A program made the translations under genes and the position numbers. From positions 496,001 through 560,000 of the forward strand of contig NZ_CP009505.1 in assembly GCF_000970045.1 (NCBI RefSeq): a stretch of 64,000 bases of DNA. Reading direction: 5' to 3'. The DNA is from Methanosarcina sp. MTP4. Its GTDB lineage: Archaea; Halobacteriota; Methanosarcinia; Methanosarcinales; Methanosarcinaceae. This document shows, in pieces, positions 8,848-14,887 of the stretch. The notes beneath the pieces are model-generated. The model searched no databases. It was not told the DNA's origin and saw nothing but the letters and a program-made list of their open reading frames with translations. How positions within the stretch are numbered: position 1 is the stretch's first letter; each line of letters begins with the position of its first letter.

Positions 8848-9511
<664 letters not shown>

Positions 9512-10858
9512 GTGGCGATTCATCCGATAGAATACCGTTACGGTACCGCAGAAATGAAGTACGTATGGAGTCAGGATAACCGGCTTTCCCGGATCCTACA
9601 GACCGAGGCTGCCCTTGCTAGGGCCGAGGCAGACATGGGGCTAATCCCTGCAGAGGCTGCTGAGATTATTTCTGAGAGCATTGGTCTGGTGAAGGCCGAG
9701 CGAGTAAACGAAATCGAGGCTGAGATCCACCATGATATGATGGCGGTGGTCATTGCAATTTCCGAACAGTGCAGGGATGATGCAGGGAAGTGGGTGCATT
9801 TCGGGGCCACCTCAAACGATATTCTGGACACGGCAACGGCTCTCCAGATAAAAGATGCAATTGACCTCCTGGAGGATAAACTGAAAATCTTACTCAAGGT
9901 TCTCCTTGATAAGGCGGAAGTTCACAAGCATACGGTTTGCTGCGGGAGGACCCACGGCCAGATCGGGGTTCCTACAACATACGGGCTCCGTTTTGCTATC
10001 TGGGCCTCCGAAGTCGCGAGGCATCTGGAGCGTCTGGCTCAGCTGACTCCGAGAGCCACTGTCGGGCAGATGACGGGGGCTGTCGGGACTCAGGCTGCCT
10101 TTGGGTCTGCAGGGGTTATGGTCCAGAAACTCTCCATGCAGCATCTGGGGGTCGGTTCGGTTGACGTTTCCAACCAGATCATCCAGAGAGACCGGCATGC
10201 CGAGTTTGTGATGTGGATGGCAAACACGGTTACGACCCTTGATAAAATCGGCGTTGAAATCAGGTCTCTCCAGCGCAGTGAGATTGCGGAAGTAGAAGAA
10301 AGCTTTGGGAAAAAGCAGGTGGGTTCTTCCACCATGCCGCATAAGCGAAACCCTATCAAGTCCGAACAGATCTGTGGGCTTGCAAGGATCGTGCGGTCCA
10401 TGGTCGAGCCCGAACTCCTGAACAACACCCTCTGGGATGAAAGGGACCTGACAAACTCTTCCTGTGAAAGAGTAGTCTTCCCCGAGGCCTGCGTGTTAAC
10501 GGACCATATCATAAAACTCGGAATCAGTGTAATCGAACATCTGCGCTTCTATCCCGAAAACATCCGTCGGAACCTTGAACTGCTACGGGGCCTAAATATG
10601 GGGGAAGCTGTCATGATAGAACTTGCAAAACGCGGGGTTGGCCGTCAGGAAGCCCATGAACTCGTCCGGGCCTCTGCAATGAAAGCCCATGAAACCGGAC
10701 AGCACTTCAAAAACGTGCTTCTGGAAGCTCCGGAAGTTGTAAGATACCTGAGTGCCGGGGATATTGAAAACCTTGTAAACCCTGACAAATACATCGGAAC
10801 TGCCGTGGAACAGGTCGAATCCCTTGCCGTGAAACTGCGGGAGGCTTACGACCTCTAA
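9512..10858 (+). CDS. purB: Adenylosuccinate lyase
   Basis: A 448-residue member of the fumarase/aspartase superfamily. It cleaves SAICAR to AICAR in purine synthesis and adenylosuccinate to AMP. The family signature GSSTMPHKRNP is present, as are the TSNDILDTA and GRTHGQ substrate-binding stretches. The GTG at 9512 (MAIHPIEYRYG) has GGTGA five bases upstream and is preferred over ATG at 9500. The gene is flanked on both sides by unrelated tandem arrays. Another purine gene, purH, lies far away at the other end of the window. Confidence 0.95.
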   Translation: MAIHPIEYRYGTAEMKYVWSQDNRLSRILQTEAALARAEADMGLIPAEAAEIISESIGLVKAERVNEIEAEIHHDMMAVVIAISEQCRDDAGKWVHFGATSNDILDTATALQIKDAIDLLEDKLKILLKVLLDKAEVHKHTVCCGRTHGQIGVPTTYGLRFAIWASEVARHLERLAQLTPRATVGQMTGAVGTQAAFGSAGVMVQKLSMQHLGVGSVDVSNQIIQRDRHAEFVMWMANTVTTLDKIGVEIRSLQRSEIAEVEESFGKKQVGSSTMPHKRNPIKSEQICGLARIVRSMVEPELLNNTLWDERDLTNSSCERVVFPEACVLTDHIIKLGISVIEHLRFYPENIRRNLELLRGLNMGEAVMIELAKRGVGRQEAHELVRASAMKAHETGQHFKNVLLEAPEVVRYLSAGDIENLVNPDKYIGTAVEQVESLAVKLREAYDL

Positions 10859-10910
10859 TCTTTTTTTCTTTTCCTTCCCCTCTCGAAGTCCGAACAATTC
10901 TAAACAATTC

Positions 10911-11054
10911 TGTACAATCTAAAAACTGTACAATCTAAAAACTGTACAATCTAAAAACTGTACAATCTAAAAACTGTACAATCTAAAAACTGTACAATCT
11001 AAAAACTGTACAATCTAAAAACTGTACAATCTAAAAACTGTACAATCTAAAAAA
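10911..11054. repeat. Nine-unit 16 bp tandem array downstream of purB
   Basis: Nine near-perfect copies of a 16 bp unit containing TGTACAATCTAAAAA, with decayed copies just before it. Each unit carries the palindrome TGTACA. The high uniformity suggests recent expansion. It begins about 50 bases after the purB stop codon. Confidence 0.95.
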
Positions 11055-11242
11055 AGCTTTTTGCCCCTTTACTTTCTTTTTACCTTGTGCGGCCCTTTAC
11101 TTTTTATCTCTCCTCTTTTTCCCTTTCGGCGGACCGTATATTTTCGGGCTTCTCTGTGATTATGTGTATCAACGGCAATTTAATCTTCGATGAGGGTTGG
11201 TGTACTCTACACTATTTATATCATTAAAAATAAATATAAATA

Positions 11243-11453
11243 TTTATATGTGATCAGCCCTATCCTTGTCACGTCTTCATAAAAATGGGTATATTGAGGC
11301 ATCTTAAAAGGCGTTGCGTAACTTTAAAAGGTCTGTTTGGGCTAGATGTGGTAGATTAATTACGGTGTGAAAGTGGATTAGATGCCTCAATAATTCCTAT
11401 GTGAAGGTTGCATATATACTTTGTGTTCGTTCTGTGCACAACCATCCAAAACT
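11243..11453 (+). ncRNA. Candidate structured RNA element, copy 1
   Basis: First of two ~210 bp related elements; the central 110 bases are about 93% identical to copy 2. It opens with a TATA-like TTTATATGTGAT. About 49 bases on, TATTGAGGCATCT (11292-11304) pairs perfectly with AGATGCCTCAATA (11380-11392), spanning 101 bases. A second small stem pairs GGTTG (11406) with CAACC (11439). No reading frame is shared between copies: TAA follows IEAS here. A transcribed RNA with its own promoter is the simplest reading; the strand is inferred from the TATA-like box. It could instead be a non-autonomous mobile repeat. Confidence 0.5.
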
Positions 11454-11987
11454 ATTCTCACTCCTTTTCTGATTCTTCTTCCTATGTTCACACTATTTGC
11501 TTTTCGTTCTCACTAATGCTCTTTCCGTGTCAACATTTCGCCTTTTTTCCTGCATTTTTTACTATTCATCCCTTCTGTTTCTAATCTGTCTTTATTTTTT
11601 TTATTTTTTCCCTCCTTTTTGTTACTTCTTTCGGATTTCTTTCGGGTTTTATGGGGTAACTCTTAATTCTGCGGGATTTTTTTTTGCTTTTACCTTTTAT
11701 ATGAGGGTCCGAAACCGTTTTACAGGGCTTGAATCCGTTTTTCAGGATTAAAATTGTTTCACAGGCCCGGGGGTAGTTTTTCCCCTGTGGTCTTATGTGC
11801 CCTGCCTTATGCCCCACCAGGGTTTAGCATGAAAAAAAGACGTAGTTAGCTCTCCTGAGTTCTTTATTATTTTTGTATATGTCTGGGTTTCAATGCCCTT
11901 TCTCGTGCAGGAGTGCCATTTTTGTGCGGTGCTTTAAAAAGGGTAAACGGCTTACTCAATTTTTATTTTTCTAAAAAAATATATAAC
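11454..11987. other. Spacer between the two duplicated elements
   Basis: A pyrimidine-rich spacer without recognisable coding content. Runs of T on the plus strand right after copy 1 could end transcription. Short frames here encode only low-complexity Phe/Leu/Ser-rich peptides. Confidence 0.35.
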
Positions 11988-12200
11988 TTTATATGTGATG
12001 AATTGCCTTCCAAAAAAACGTTGCTTAAAATTGGGTATATTGAGGCACCTAAAAAGGCGTTGCGTAACTTTAAAAAGTCTATTTGGGCAAAATGTGGTAG
12101 ATTTTTTACGGTGTGAAAGTGGATTAGATGCCTCAATAATTTCTTACGATGAGGTTGTTTATATAATTTGTGCTGAATATGCGCACAACCGTCCAAAACT
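11988..12200 (+). ncRNA. Candidate structured RNA element, copy 2
   Basis: Second copy of the element at 11243-11453. It has the same TTTATATGTGAT start and the same 101-base span between arms TATTGAGGCACCT (12038-12050) and AGATGCCTCAATA (12126-12138), with one mismatch that would be a G-U pair in the opposite-strand RNA. The distal stem is one pair longer here (GGTTGT at 12153, ACAACC at 12185). Changes are spread mainly through the loop, while most stem bases are kept. A weak 67-codon frame across this copy is broken by TAA in copy 1, arguing against coding. Confidence 0.5.
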
Positions 12201-12529
12201 CGTCAATTGCCCTTAAATTCCTTTAAATTTGGTCTGTTCCTATTCTCCGTTTTGAACCAATATTCTGTTCTTTTTTATCTCTTATTTCTATCTTTTTCCC
12301 ATTTTTATGCATCATGACCCTGATTTTTCCCTTTTATGCCCCCTTCCTCTTTATTCTCCTGGCACATGTTCACTTCTTGTTTTGCTTCTGAATCACGCGA
12401 AATCTTTTTATGTGGGTGTCACCAGGGGGTTGCCCTATTCAGAGGGACACCGGGGTTCGGCCAGAAATCTGTTACCGGAAGTAAACCTTTTGTCGGATTC
12501 CGGATATATCCTATTGCTTTTAATACTGA
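12201..12529. other. Intergenic region downstream of ramA
   Basis: A 330-base T-rich stretch between copy 2 and the ramA stop codon. T-runs on both strands could terminate the converging transcripts. No gene is supported. Confidence 0.35.
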
Positions 12530-14149
12530 TTAAGGATTCTCGAAGACTTCCAGGTTTTCCCAGTTGAATTTGTCCCCGGGGCAGGCCCGGATACATTTCT
12601 GGCAGTGGGCGCCGTCACAGAGGTCGGTGCTGATCATGACTCTGTTGTTCTCGTCAATGCTGATGGCGTCATTGGGGCAGACTTTTATGCACTTCGGACA
12701 CTCGGGACAGTCTTCGACAACCATTGAGAGGTATGTCCCCACCCTTTCGAGTACGTGCAGCCCCTCTTCCCCTAGTACCTGGATGTCCCTTTCCACGCGT
12801 TTTTCGATTATCGGCTTTTCTATGGGGTCGCCCAGGGCGGGAAGTCCCTTCTTTTTGAGGTACTTCCTGAACATTTTCATGGGCATCCCCTCTTCCCAGT
12901 AGGCAAGTTCGAGGACGTAAGCGTCGCTGAATTCCGGGGCAGTTGCAAACATAGTGTGAGTACCTATGATCTTGTTTGCAACGTCCTGCAGTTCCCAGAG
13001 CCTATCTTCGGAAACAAGGATTTCCTTTGCCACGGTAAGCGAGGTGTTTCCTAGCTGGCAGATCCTACCTGTGCCGTAGGGAATCAGCCCTATTTTCTGG
13101 GCTTTTGCCGCATCCATATAGGTGCCTGCGGCTCCTGCCATGTAAGCCGTTTCGATATCTTCCATTGTAATTCCGGCAGTCGCACAGAGGGTGATATGCC
13201 CCGCACGAATTGCCCCGATAGCTTTTCCGGCTTCTTTCAGGTCATGCTCCGAGAAAAGTATCTTATCCTGGAGGTGAATGATCCCTTCGGGAGTCTTGAC
13301 TTTAGGAAGTTCAACAAGGCCTTTTCCCAGCGCTTTTTCGATCAGGGCTATAACTCCCGTGCCCGTAATCCCTTTGGCTTTTATCTGGCCCTCCTCAAGA
13401 ATTTCCCCTGTTGCCGGATCAACAAGGTCTCCTGGGGTTGATTTCATCTCTTCGTTCAACACATAGTTCCGGAGTGCCCCGTTTTCAAATTCTATGTCGG
13501 AAATCGTGAACGGGGATGCAAGGTTCCCGTGCTTTATCTGCTGCCCTTCCAGCGCAGGCCCGGCAGCTGCAGAGCCTGTGTAAATAACATCTCCTACTTT
13601 CAGGGCCATCTCGGCGTTTGTCCCGTAGTCCGTTGCAATCGAAATCTCATCCTTGTCAAGCATCCCGGATTTTACGATCAGGGCAAGGGCATCGGCCCCT
13701 ACTTCGTGCTTGATTGCCGGGGGTACCATCACCTCACATTCAAATTCCTCAAGCCCGGGGATTTCACTGCTTGGCACTATCCTTGCGTCTCTTTTCTGGT
13801 CTTCTATGTGGTATTTCTTTTTCTTCCGCTCCCCTGCGTAGGCAAGGTCTTCAATGGTAATCCCCTGGAATATGGATAACTGGATGGGGTTTCCGCATAT
13901 GGAAATCCTTTCAAGTTCCCCTGTTTTCACATCAAGGGCCTGGAGCAGGTTCTTTACCGCATTCACGGAAAGTCCGTGGGCCAGGTCCTGCCCGTAGTGA
14001 ATTGCGAAGTCCATGTGGTCCATCACATTCGCTCCCGGCAGGGGGTTCCTCAGTGTGATTACCGTTCTTTTGATTTCATCCCGGTCAAGGTCTACTTTCT
14101 GAGCTCTAAAACCGCTCGTTCCCAGGTCTACTGCAACTCCAACTCTCAT
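12530..14149 (-). CDS. ramA: RamA-type corrinoid protein reductive activase
   Basis: A 539-residue protein that, in the RamA family, uses ATP to reduce Co(II) corrinoid to Co(I) in methyltransferase systems for methylamines. The N-terminal part is an actin/ASKHA-like fold starting MRVGVAVDLGTSGFRAQKVD, with glycine-rich loops such as IATDYGTNAE and TGTGVIALIEKA. The C-terminus has two [4Fe-4S] ferredoxin motifs: CPECPKCIKVCP, and CDGAHCQKCIRACPGD. Length matches characterised RamA. Methanosarcina genomes carry several paralogs, so the substrate corrinoid protein is not certain; no methyltransferase gene is adjacent. A run of 10/20 bp phased repeats lies just upstream (14213-14280). Confidence 0.9.
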   Translation of the reverse strand: MRVGVAVDLGTSGFRAQKVDLDRDEIKRTVITLRNPLPGANVMDHMDFAIHYGQDLAHGLSVNAVKNLLQALDVKTGELERISICGNPIQLSIFQGITIEDLAYAGERKKKKYHIEDQKRDARIVPSSEIPGLEEFECEVMVPPAIKHEVGADALALIVKSGMLDKDEISIATDYGTNAEMALKVGDVIYTGSAAAGPALEGQQIKHGNLASPFTISDIEFENGALRNYVLNEEMKSTPGDLVDPATGEILEEGQIKAKGITGTGVIALIEKALGKGLVELPKVKTPEGIIHLQDKILFSEHDLKEAGKAIGAIRAGHITLCATAGITMEDIETAYMAGAAGTYMDAAKAQKIGLIPYGTGRICQLGNTSLTVAKEILVSEDRLWELQDVANKIIGTHTMFATAPEFSDAYVLELAYWEEGMPMKMFRKYLKKKGLPALGDPIEKPIIEKRVERDIQVLGEEGLHVLERVGTYLSMVVEDCPECPKCIKVCPNDAISIDENNRVMISTDLCDGAHCQKCIRACPGDKFNWENLEVFENP

Positions 14150-14571: not shown

Positions 14572-14887
14572 TGATGAGCTAGTTCGGGTAGCCCGGCGTT
14601 ACCTGTAACCCGAAATCGCCGATACGCGGGGGACGAAGCCAATGGAAGGTTTATCAAAGAGTTCCGAGCCTGGGGCCTCAACTGAGAAGCCCCGTCCTGC
14701 TTGGATGTTGCTGGTTTGAGGGCTTGCTGGAGAACAGGTCTTCCTATCTTAACCGCGGAAACCGGTCGAGGTCCGGAAGGGAGCAGACTCACCGTGGGCA
14801 ATCATCGCTTGTGGGGTTGCGGGGTGGAGAAGGGGTGCCAGCCCCCTGGGATCTCCGAGGTGTATCAACCTGCGGCGTGCTCATCAC
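14572..14887 (+). ncRNA. Archaeal 7S signal recognition particle RNA
   Basis: A GC-rich ~316-base RNA in an AT-rich gap. The helix 8 (SRP54-binding) motif GTCCGGAAGGGAGCAG is at 14771-14786. The ends pair (GATGAGC near 14574 with GCTCATC near 14879), closing the long rod as in archaeal 7S RNA. GC blocks such as TTCGGGTAGCCCGG and GGGTGCCAGCCCCC fit the 5' domain and helix 5. It scaffolds SRP19 and SRP54 for co-translational targeting. Ends are estimated from pairing and may be off by a few bases. Confidence 0.92.

Follow-up and report, generated by a model that had tools for sequence, protein, structure and literature searches.

What are the two related hairpins that lie one after the other between purB and ramA in Methanosarcina sp. 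MTP4? The window referred to below is the whole 64,000-nucleotide stretch of DNA that was analysed (contig NZ_CP009505.1, positions 496,001 to 560,000 of the forward strand), and all positions are counted from its first letter. An earlier note on this DNA, made from the letters of the window, proposed a tandem pair of small RNA genes, and this is still the best reading in view of the synteny, the two-copy count, and the plus-strand base-pair evidence from 30 copies. We consider it probable, with appreciable room for doubt, that each copy (A and B) is a plus-strand small RNA gene with a TATA promoter of its own and that the two form a sibling pair of trans-acting regulators. The locus is laid out as follows:

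9500–10858, plus strand: purB, adenylosuccinate lyase (TIGR00928, 527.6 bits), the left neighbor, with synteny kept
11272–11455, plus strand: predicted RNA A, its start placed from the TATA position and from the conservation profile
11292–11304 and 11380–11392: inverted arms of copy A, 13 nt, 100% complementary
12017–12202, plus strand: predicted RNA B, its start and end placed with the conservation profile
12038–12052 and 12124–12138: inverted arms of copy B, 15 nt, 93% complementary, with one C.A mismatch on the plus strand
12530–14149, minus strand: ramA-type corrinoid protein reductive activase (TIGR04270, 873.8 bits), the convergent right neighbor
14572–14886, plus strand: SRP RNA (RF01857)

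The copies occupy part of a 1.67-kb gap that extends from the purB stop (10858) to the ramA stop (12530), in keeping with the 1.7 kb beside ramA described before. Pairwise comparison within the window revealed 92% identity across 119 nt between the core copies (11280–11398 and 12026–12144) at a spacing of 746, close to the first estimates of about 93% and 745 bases. That the homology runs beyond the inverted arms, as had also been described, is confirmed by the left flanks (11208–11254 and 11953–11999, including the TATA-like stretch; spacing 745), which are 77% identical, and by the right flanks (11394–11453 and 12141–12200; spacing 747), which are 75% identical. The TATA-like box, previously put at about 50 bases ahead of the first arm, precedes it by 49–50 nt in both copies. 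The hairpin span is 101 nt in copy A and copy B alike; the earlier claim of an identical span holds for its length, and the two sequences differ. RNA A is predicted to end at the point where conservation gives way to T/C-rich DNA, and an alternative end could lie near 11430.

In the genome to which the window belongs, searches at the DNA level and with a covariance model both detected only two copies; the weaker minus-strand matches of the own-genome search are the same two hairpins read backwards. Every one of the 4 genomes in the window's genus carries the pair, as do 10 of 31 genomes in a second Methanosarcina genus, and the order purB–A–B–ramA is fixed in 14 genomes across the two genera. 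G007 and G008, the two outgroup genomes, each have a copy immediately before the SRP RNA gene, with no ramA in between; G008 has a further copy downstream of purB, on a contig separate from that of its SRP RNA-linked copy. An order-wide covariance search (CM R1) found the element in 16 of 186 genomes and 3 of 27 genera, and in no further genus of the order. The covariance search across Methanosarcina suggested in the earlier note thereby returned carriers in two Methanosarcina genera and in two outgroup genomes. Matches of a pattern scan through a collection of 84,980 species were confined to records titled Methanosarcina, Methanosarcinaceae, or Euryarchaeota. The comparison with Rfam suggested alongside was also run and matched the element to no family: Rfam 15 at the gathering score gave just the SRP RNA and one tRNA in the window, and the matches in the gap at E-values up to 10 were at chance level only.

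The pair is missing from 21 of the 31 genomes of the second genus. In a purB tree that took in the 19 non-carriers whose purB was readable, 18 form a single supported clade (96/92), and the nineteenth, G098, falls among the carriers. The distance between purB and ramA is 85–489 bp in the non-carriers with ramA within reach. Two relics were read by eye, a piece resembling the 3' part of copy B in G075 and a piece resembling the 5' part of copy A in G085. Since the element is present in the window's genus as well as in the outgroup, loss is the simpler reading, that is to say, the pair would have been lost, with recognizable fragments, in one branch of the second genus. A dispensable gene on which selection acts for as long as it is kept would be expected to show this pattern. 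Because the pair is kept together widely and was lost with scars, the copies look like genuine RNA genes and not like a mobile repeat. The clean loss in one clade was missing from the earlier note, as were the neighboring SRP RNA gene and the reverse-facing block described below. In a tree of the copies, most forks of which are weak, copies with the same label, A or B, tend to group together (3 changes versus about 10.7 in shuffles), which suggests that the tandem duplication is likely old and that exchange between the copies afterwards is possible.

The fold was analysed in an alignment of 30 copies (16 carrier genomes in all). Its elements in the window are given below:

11293–11306, plus strand: 5' arm of closing stem P1, copy A, pairing with 11378–11391
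11317–11321, plus strand: 5' strand of inner helix P3 (CGTAA), copy A, pairing with 11360–11364 (TTACG)
11331–11337, plus strand: 5' strand of apical helix P2, copy A, pairing with 11350–11356, with an alternative partner just ahead of the P1 3' arm
11378–11391, plus strand: 3' arm of P1, copy A, pairing with 11293–11306
11421–11441, plus strand: possible 3' hairpin P4 (TTGTGT..GCACAA) or operator-like palindrome, copy A
12039–12052, plus strand: 5' arm of P1, copy B, pairing with 12124–12137 with one C.A mismatch
12063–12067, plus strand: 5' strand of P3, copy B, pairing with 12106–12110
12168–12188, plus strand: possible 3' hairpin P4 (TTGTGC..GCACAA), copy B

On the plus strand, the core of the two copies folds better than shuffled sequence (z of −2.7 and −3.0), and longer stretches with the tails fold no better than shuffled ones. 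P3 is paired in 95.2% of the cells, a percentage matched by 7 of 500 shuffles, compared with 29–66% for slid versions; since the copies are related, the independent changes are fewer than the cells counted. The wobble variants of P3 comprise 14 G-U and 0 A-C on the plus strand, and two double changes were found in this helix. P2 is paired in 91% of the cells, with 18 G-U versus 4 A-C variants, part of them co-inherited, and with covariation not above shuffles. A helix alternative to P2, which pairs next to P1 (slide +1), is also paired in 91% of the cells; the two score alike, and the alternative could form a pseudoknot together with P3. The sequence of P1 and of the joining strands scarcely changes between copies, so P1 gives little covariation. 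Its few variants lean the opposite way (4 G-U and 9 A-C), and in the outgroup copy G008_A a change of a P1 pair from T-A to C-G was seen directly. For the structure as a whole, covariation is no higher than in shuffles. Overall, the interior of the hairpin favors a plus-strand RNA, not overwhelmingly.

Promoter-like blocks are located on both sides of each hairpin:

11226–11254, plus strand: promoter-like AT-rich block, copy A, containing the TATA-like TTTATATGTGAT at 11243–11254
11406–11425, minus strand: conserved 3' block GGTTGCATATATACTTTGTG, copy A, BRE/TATA-like, directed toward the hairpin, whose base is about 25 nt away
11988–11999, plus strand: TATA-like box TTTATATGTGAT, copy B
12153–12172, minus strand: conserved 3' block GGTTGTTTATATAATTTGTG, copy B, reverse promoter-like

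The left AT-rich TATA-like block, which is kept in 27 of the 30 copies (absent from G081_B, G007_S, and G008_S) at a variable distance from P1, nearly equals a tRNA-Cys promoter of the genome to which the window belongs, AATATTTATATATAATGA, and is predicted to be the own promoter of each RNA gene. The Nrp operator has the motif GGAA-N6-TTCC, and this motif is absent from the gap (10859–12533). The right block, GGTTRTTTATAWAATTTGTG, is kept in 29 of the 30 copies at a fixed 25–26 nt from P1, more regular in position than the plus-strand TATA box. Read on the minus strand as CACAAATTATATAAATAACC, it resembles the SRP RNA promoter, CTTTTATAAATTAC, and would be a BRE/TATA-like promoter with a predicted start at the P1 base. 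The right block is overlapped by a palindrome, TTGTGY-N9-RCACAA, in the B copies; the outgroup has it too, and so do the A copies within the window's genus. On the plus strand, the palindrome can form a 3' hairpin whose last pair is U-A, U-G, or C-G. There are thus three readings of the right block: an antisense promoter, a U-rich tail or terminator, or a protein-binding site. A second, back-facing promoter-like block 3' of each copy is new here, and an antisense RNA could start from it.

If the right block is a promoter, each hairpin may be transcribed from both sides, from a plus-strand promoter on the left and a minus-strand promoter on the right, giving a sense/antisense pair or a locus in which only the minus-strand RNA matters. 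The near-universal presence of CACAAATTATATAAATAACC at a fixed distance from P1, its likeness to the SRP RNA promoter, and the operator-like palindrome just upstream of the reverse block in the B copies all point this way. However, the inner helices vary like a plus-strand RNA, as the G-U and A-C counts of P3 show, and the block could instead serve that RNA as a U-rich tail, a terminator, or a site for an Sm-like protein; we regard transcription from both sides as unlikely. Also unlikely is the specific form in which two facing promoters per hairpin produce overlapping sense and antisense RNAs and the amount of active RNA depends on their balance, which in B-type copies would be controlled by the palindrome upstream of the reverse promoter. 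The near invariance of P1 and the joining strands would also suit an RNA that acts as a protein-binding scaffold or sponge with no base pairing, P1 and the internal loops being the recognition site. In accord with this, a scan of 5 genomes for conserved sites antisense to the apical loop (16 nt, up to 2 mismatches) found none beyond the element itself and background, the latter being one to three stray matches in 3 of the 5 genomes, near the level of a reversed-pattern control. Such a scaffold is without a candidate protein, and Ro/TROVE proteins were found in 0 of 28 genomes, carriers and non-carriers together, which argues against a Y-RNA-type particle; a Y RNA was rejected on this ground, and we find the scaffold reading as a whole quite improbable. 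An H/ACA guide RNA, which would have a pocket complementary to rRNA around a U-N, was rejected as well, with no bipartite rRNA match in a 6.6-kb rRNA stretch of two genomes and with duplexes not above those of shuffled queries.

The remaining readings dispense with a regulatory RNA. At the DNA level, too, the P1 arms hardly vary, and TATA-like blocks flank the hairpin on either side, as might be seen in a DNA-level element of paired binding sites or inverted repeats that has no RNA product; the asymmetric G-U variation of P3 and the well-conserved interior make this very unlikely. Inverted arms and two copies recall a MITE or another mobile repeat, or the relic of one. By contrast, there is no third copy in the genome, the element sits at the same place in every carrier of two genera, its homology extends beyond the arms, its flanks differ with no target-site duplication, and zero matches were found in a viral contig collection, which leaves this origin a very slim chance. 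The earlier opinion that a simple MITE does not fit has thus held up: dispersed copies and target-site duplications were sought, and neither was found. Short ORFs of up to 91 aa across the core would be compatible with two small protein genes; however, frame and C-terminus differ between the copies, and the core has indels of 1–2 nt (core lengths of 80, 81, and 90–94 nt among copies), and we give this reading next to no credence. The shift of the ORF-like stretches in frame and C-terminus agrees with the earlier observation that there is no common frame.

According to the preferred reading of sibling small RNA genes, the TATA promoter of each copy would drive a plus-strand RNA of about 150–185 nt. 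In its 5' domain, the closing stem P1 (13–14 bp) would enclose the inner helix P3 and the apical helix P2, the helices being connected by long, almost invariant stretches that are presumably unpaired, and a less conserved tail would follow. The two genes would be siblings by an old tandem duplication. Their job is most likely trans-acting post-transcriptional control via the conserved unpaired stretches, as the M. mazei RNAs sRNA162 and sRNA154 suggest by analogy, and having two genes may serve dosage or targets that partly differ. Several results count against this reading: the sparse P1 variants that lean the opposite way, the covariation of the whole structure at shuffle level, the equal scores of P2 and its alternative, the plus-strand TATA box that three copies lack and that lies at a variable distance from P1, and the empty scan for loop targets.

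Sibling regulatory small RNAs, the best reading of this pair by analogy, would be of a kind already known in Methanosarcina. M. mazei sRNA162 and sRNA171 are two homologous 191-nt RNAs, and sRNA162 acts on an mRNA that encodes an ArsR-family regulator and also on the expression of methyltransferases (PMC3510493). As is proposed for the pair described here, these are genus-restricted intergenic archaeal sRNAs in two homologous copies that arose by duplication, and their stem-loops with a single-stranded linker resemble the predicted fold of the pair (PMC3510493). By contrast, sRNA162 and sRNA171 are apart from each other, adjoin ArsR regulators (MM2441/MM2442 and MM2448/MM2449), and are represented by only one copy in M. 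acetivorans and in M. barkeri (PMC3510493), whereas the present pair is tandem, likely old, and flanked by purB and ramA in carriers of two genera, with no ArsR-family neighbor; the two systems are set apart here by description and locus. M. mazei sRNA154 is likewise a genus-level intergenic sRNA with its own promoter, which is a predicted one in our pair, but sRNA154 has an upstream Nrp site and a 20-aa sORF (PMC3960522, PMC11456600), and the present copies have no common frame. Bacterial sibling sRNAs, according to a review (PMC4211561), are also represented by more than one highly related sRNA gene per genome; unlike these siblings, our pair is archaeal, and it has no known sequence relation to them.

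The locus is unmentioned in the M. mazei and M. acetivorans sRNA papers covered; the RNA may already stand, unnamed, among the 248 M. mazei sRNA candidates listed elsewhere in 2009. Archaeal small RNAs with known targets are few. The element provides a structured two-copy RNA family with 30 aligned sequences in tractable methanogens, in which deletion mutants are easy, and the clade without it is a natural experiment. The reverse promoter-like block adds a specific and quickly testable claim, that of overlapping transcription.

Several minor observations were made along the way. In G096 (L031), copies A and B have GGGCTATATGTGG in common, which distinguishes them from the copies of every other genome and suggests that gene conversion took place between the two. 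The ramA adjoining the RNA pair of G099 (L039, L055) matches in fragments only; in its sister G098, the RNA pair is gone and another, transposase-like sequence lies downstream of purB. G104 (L100) has a transposase-like sequence with a broken frame directly downstream of purB in place of ramA. Two apparent further copies were rejected. A third, weaker copy in L003, L025, and L026 is a resemblance of 31–33 nt to the core, probably by chance, within another small ORF, itself conserved and about 65 aa long (MRGDESMRDMSRGLVSYLFTFLELLCGLVLLVPFGWIVLLFCM...), and the match in L007 (about 1440–1670) is a minisatellite with units of roughly 21 nt (ACTGYAATAACTTTAAAAGGT) that has TAATAACTTTAAAAGG in common with the element. 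In the window, purB is bordered by tandem repeats on both sides: a 17-mer, TGAATTGAAGTCCTAAT, is repeated 8.2 times ahead of it (9292–9430), and nine perfect tandem copies of a 16-mer, CTGTACAATCTAAAAA, lie directly downstream (10910–11053).
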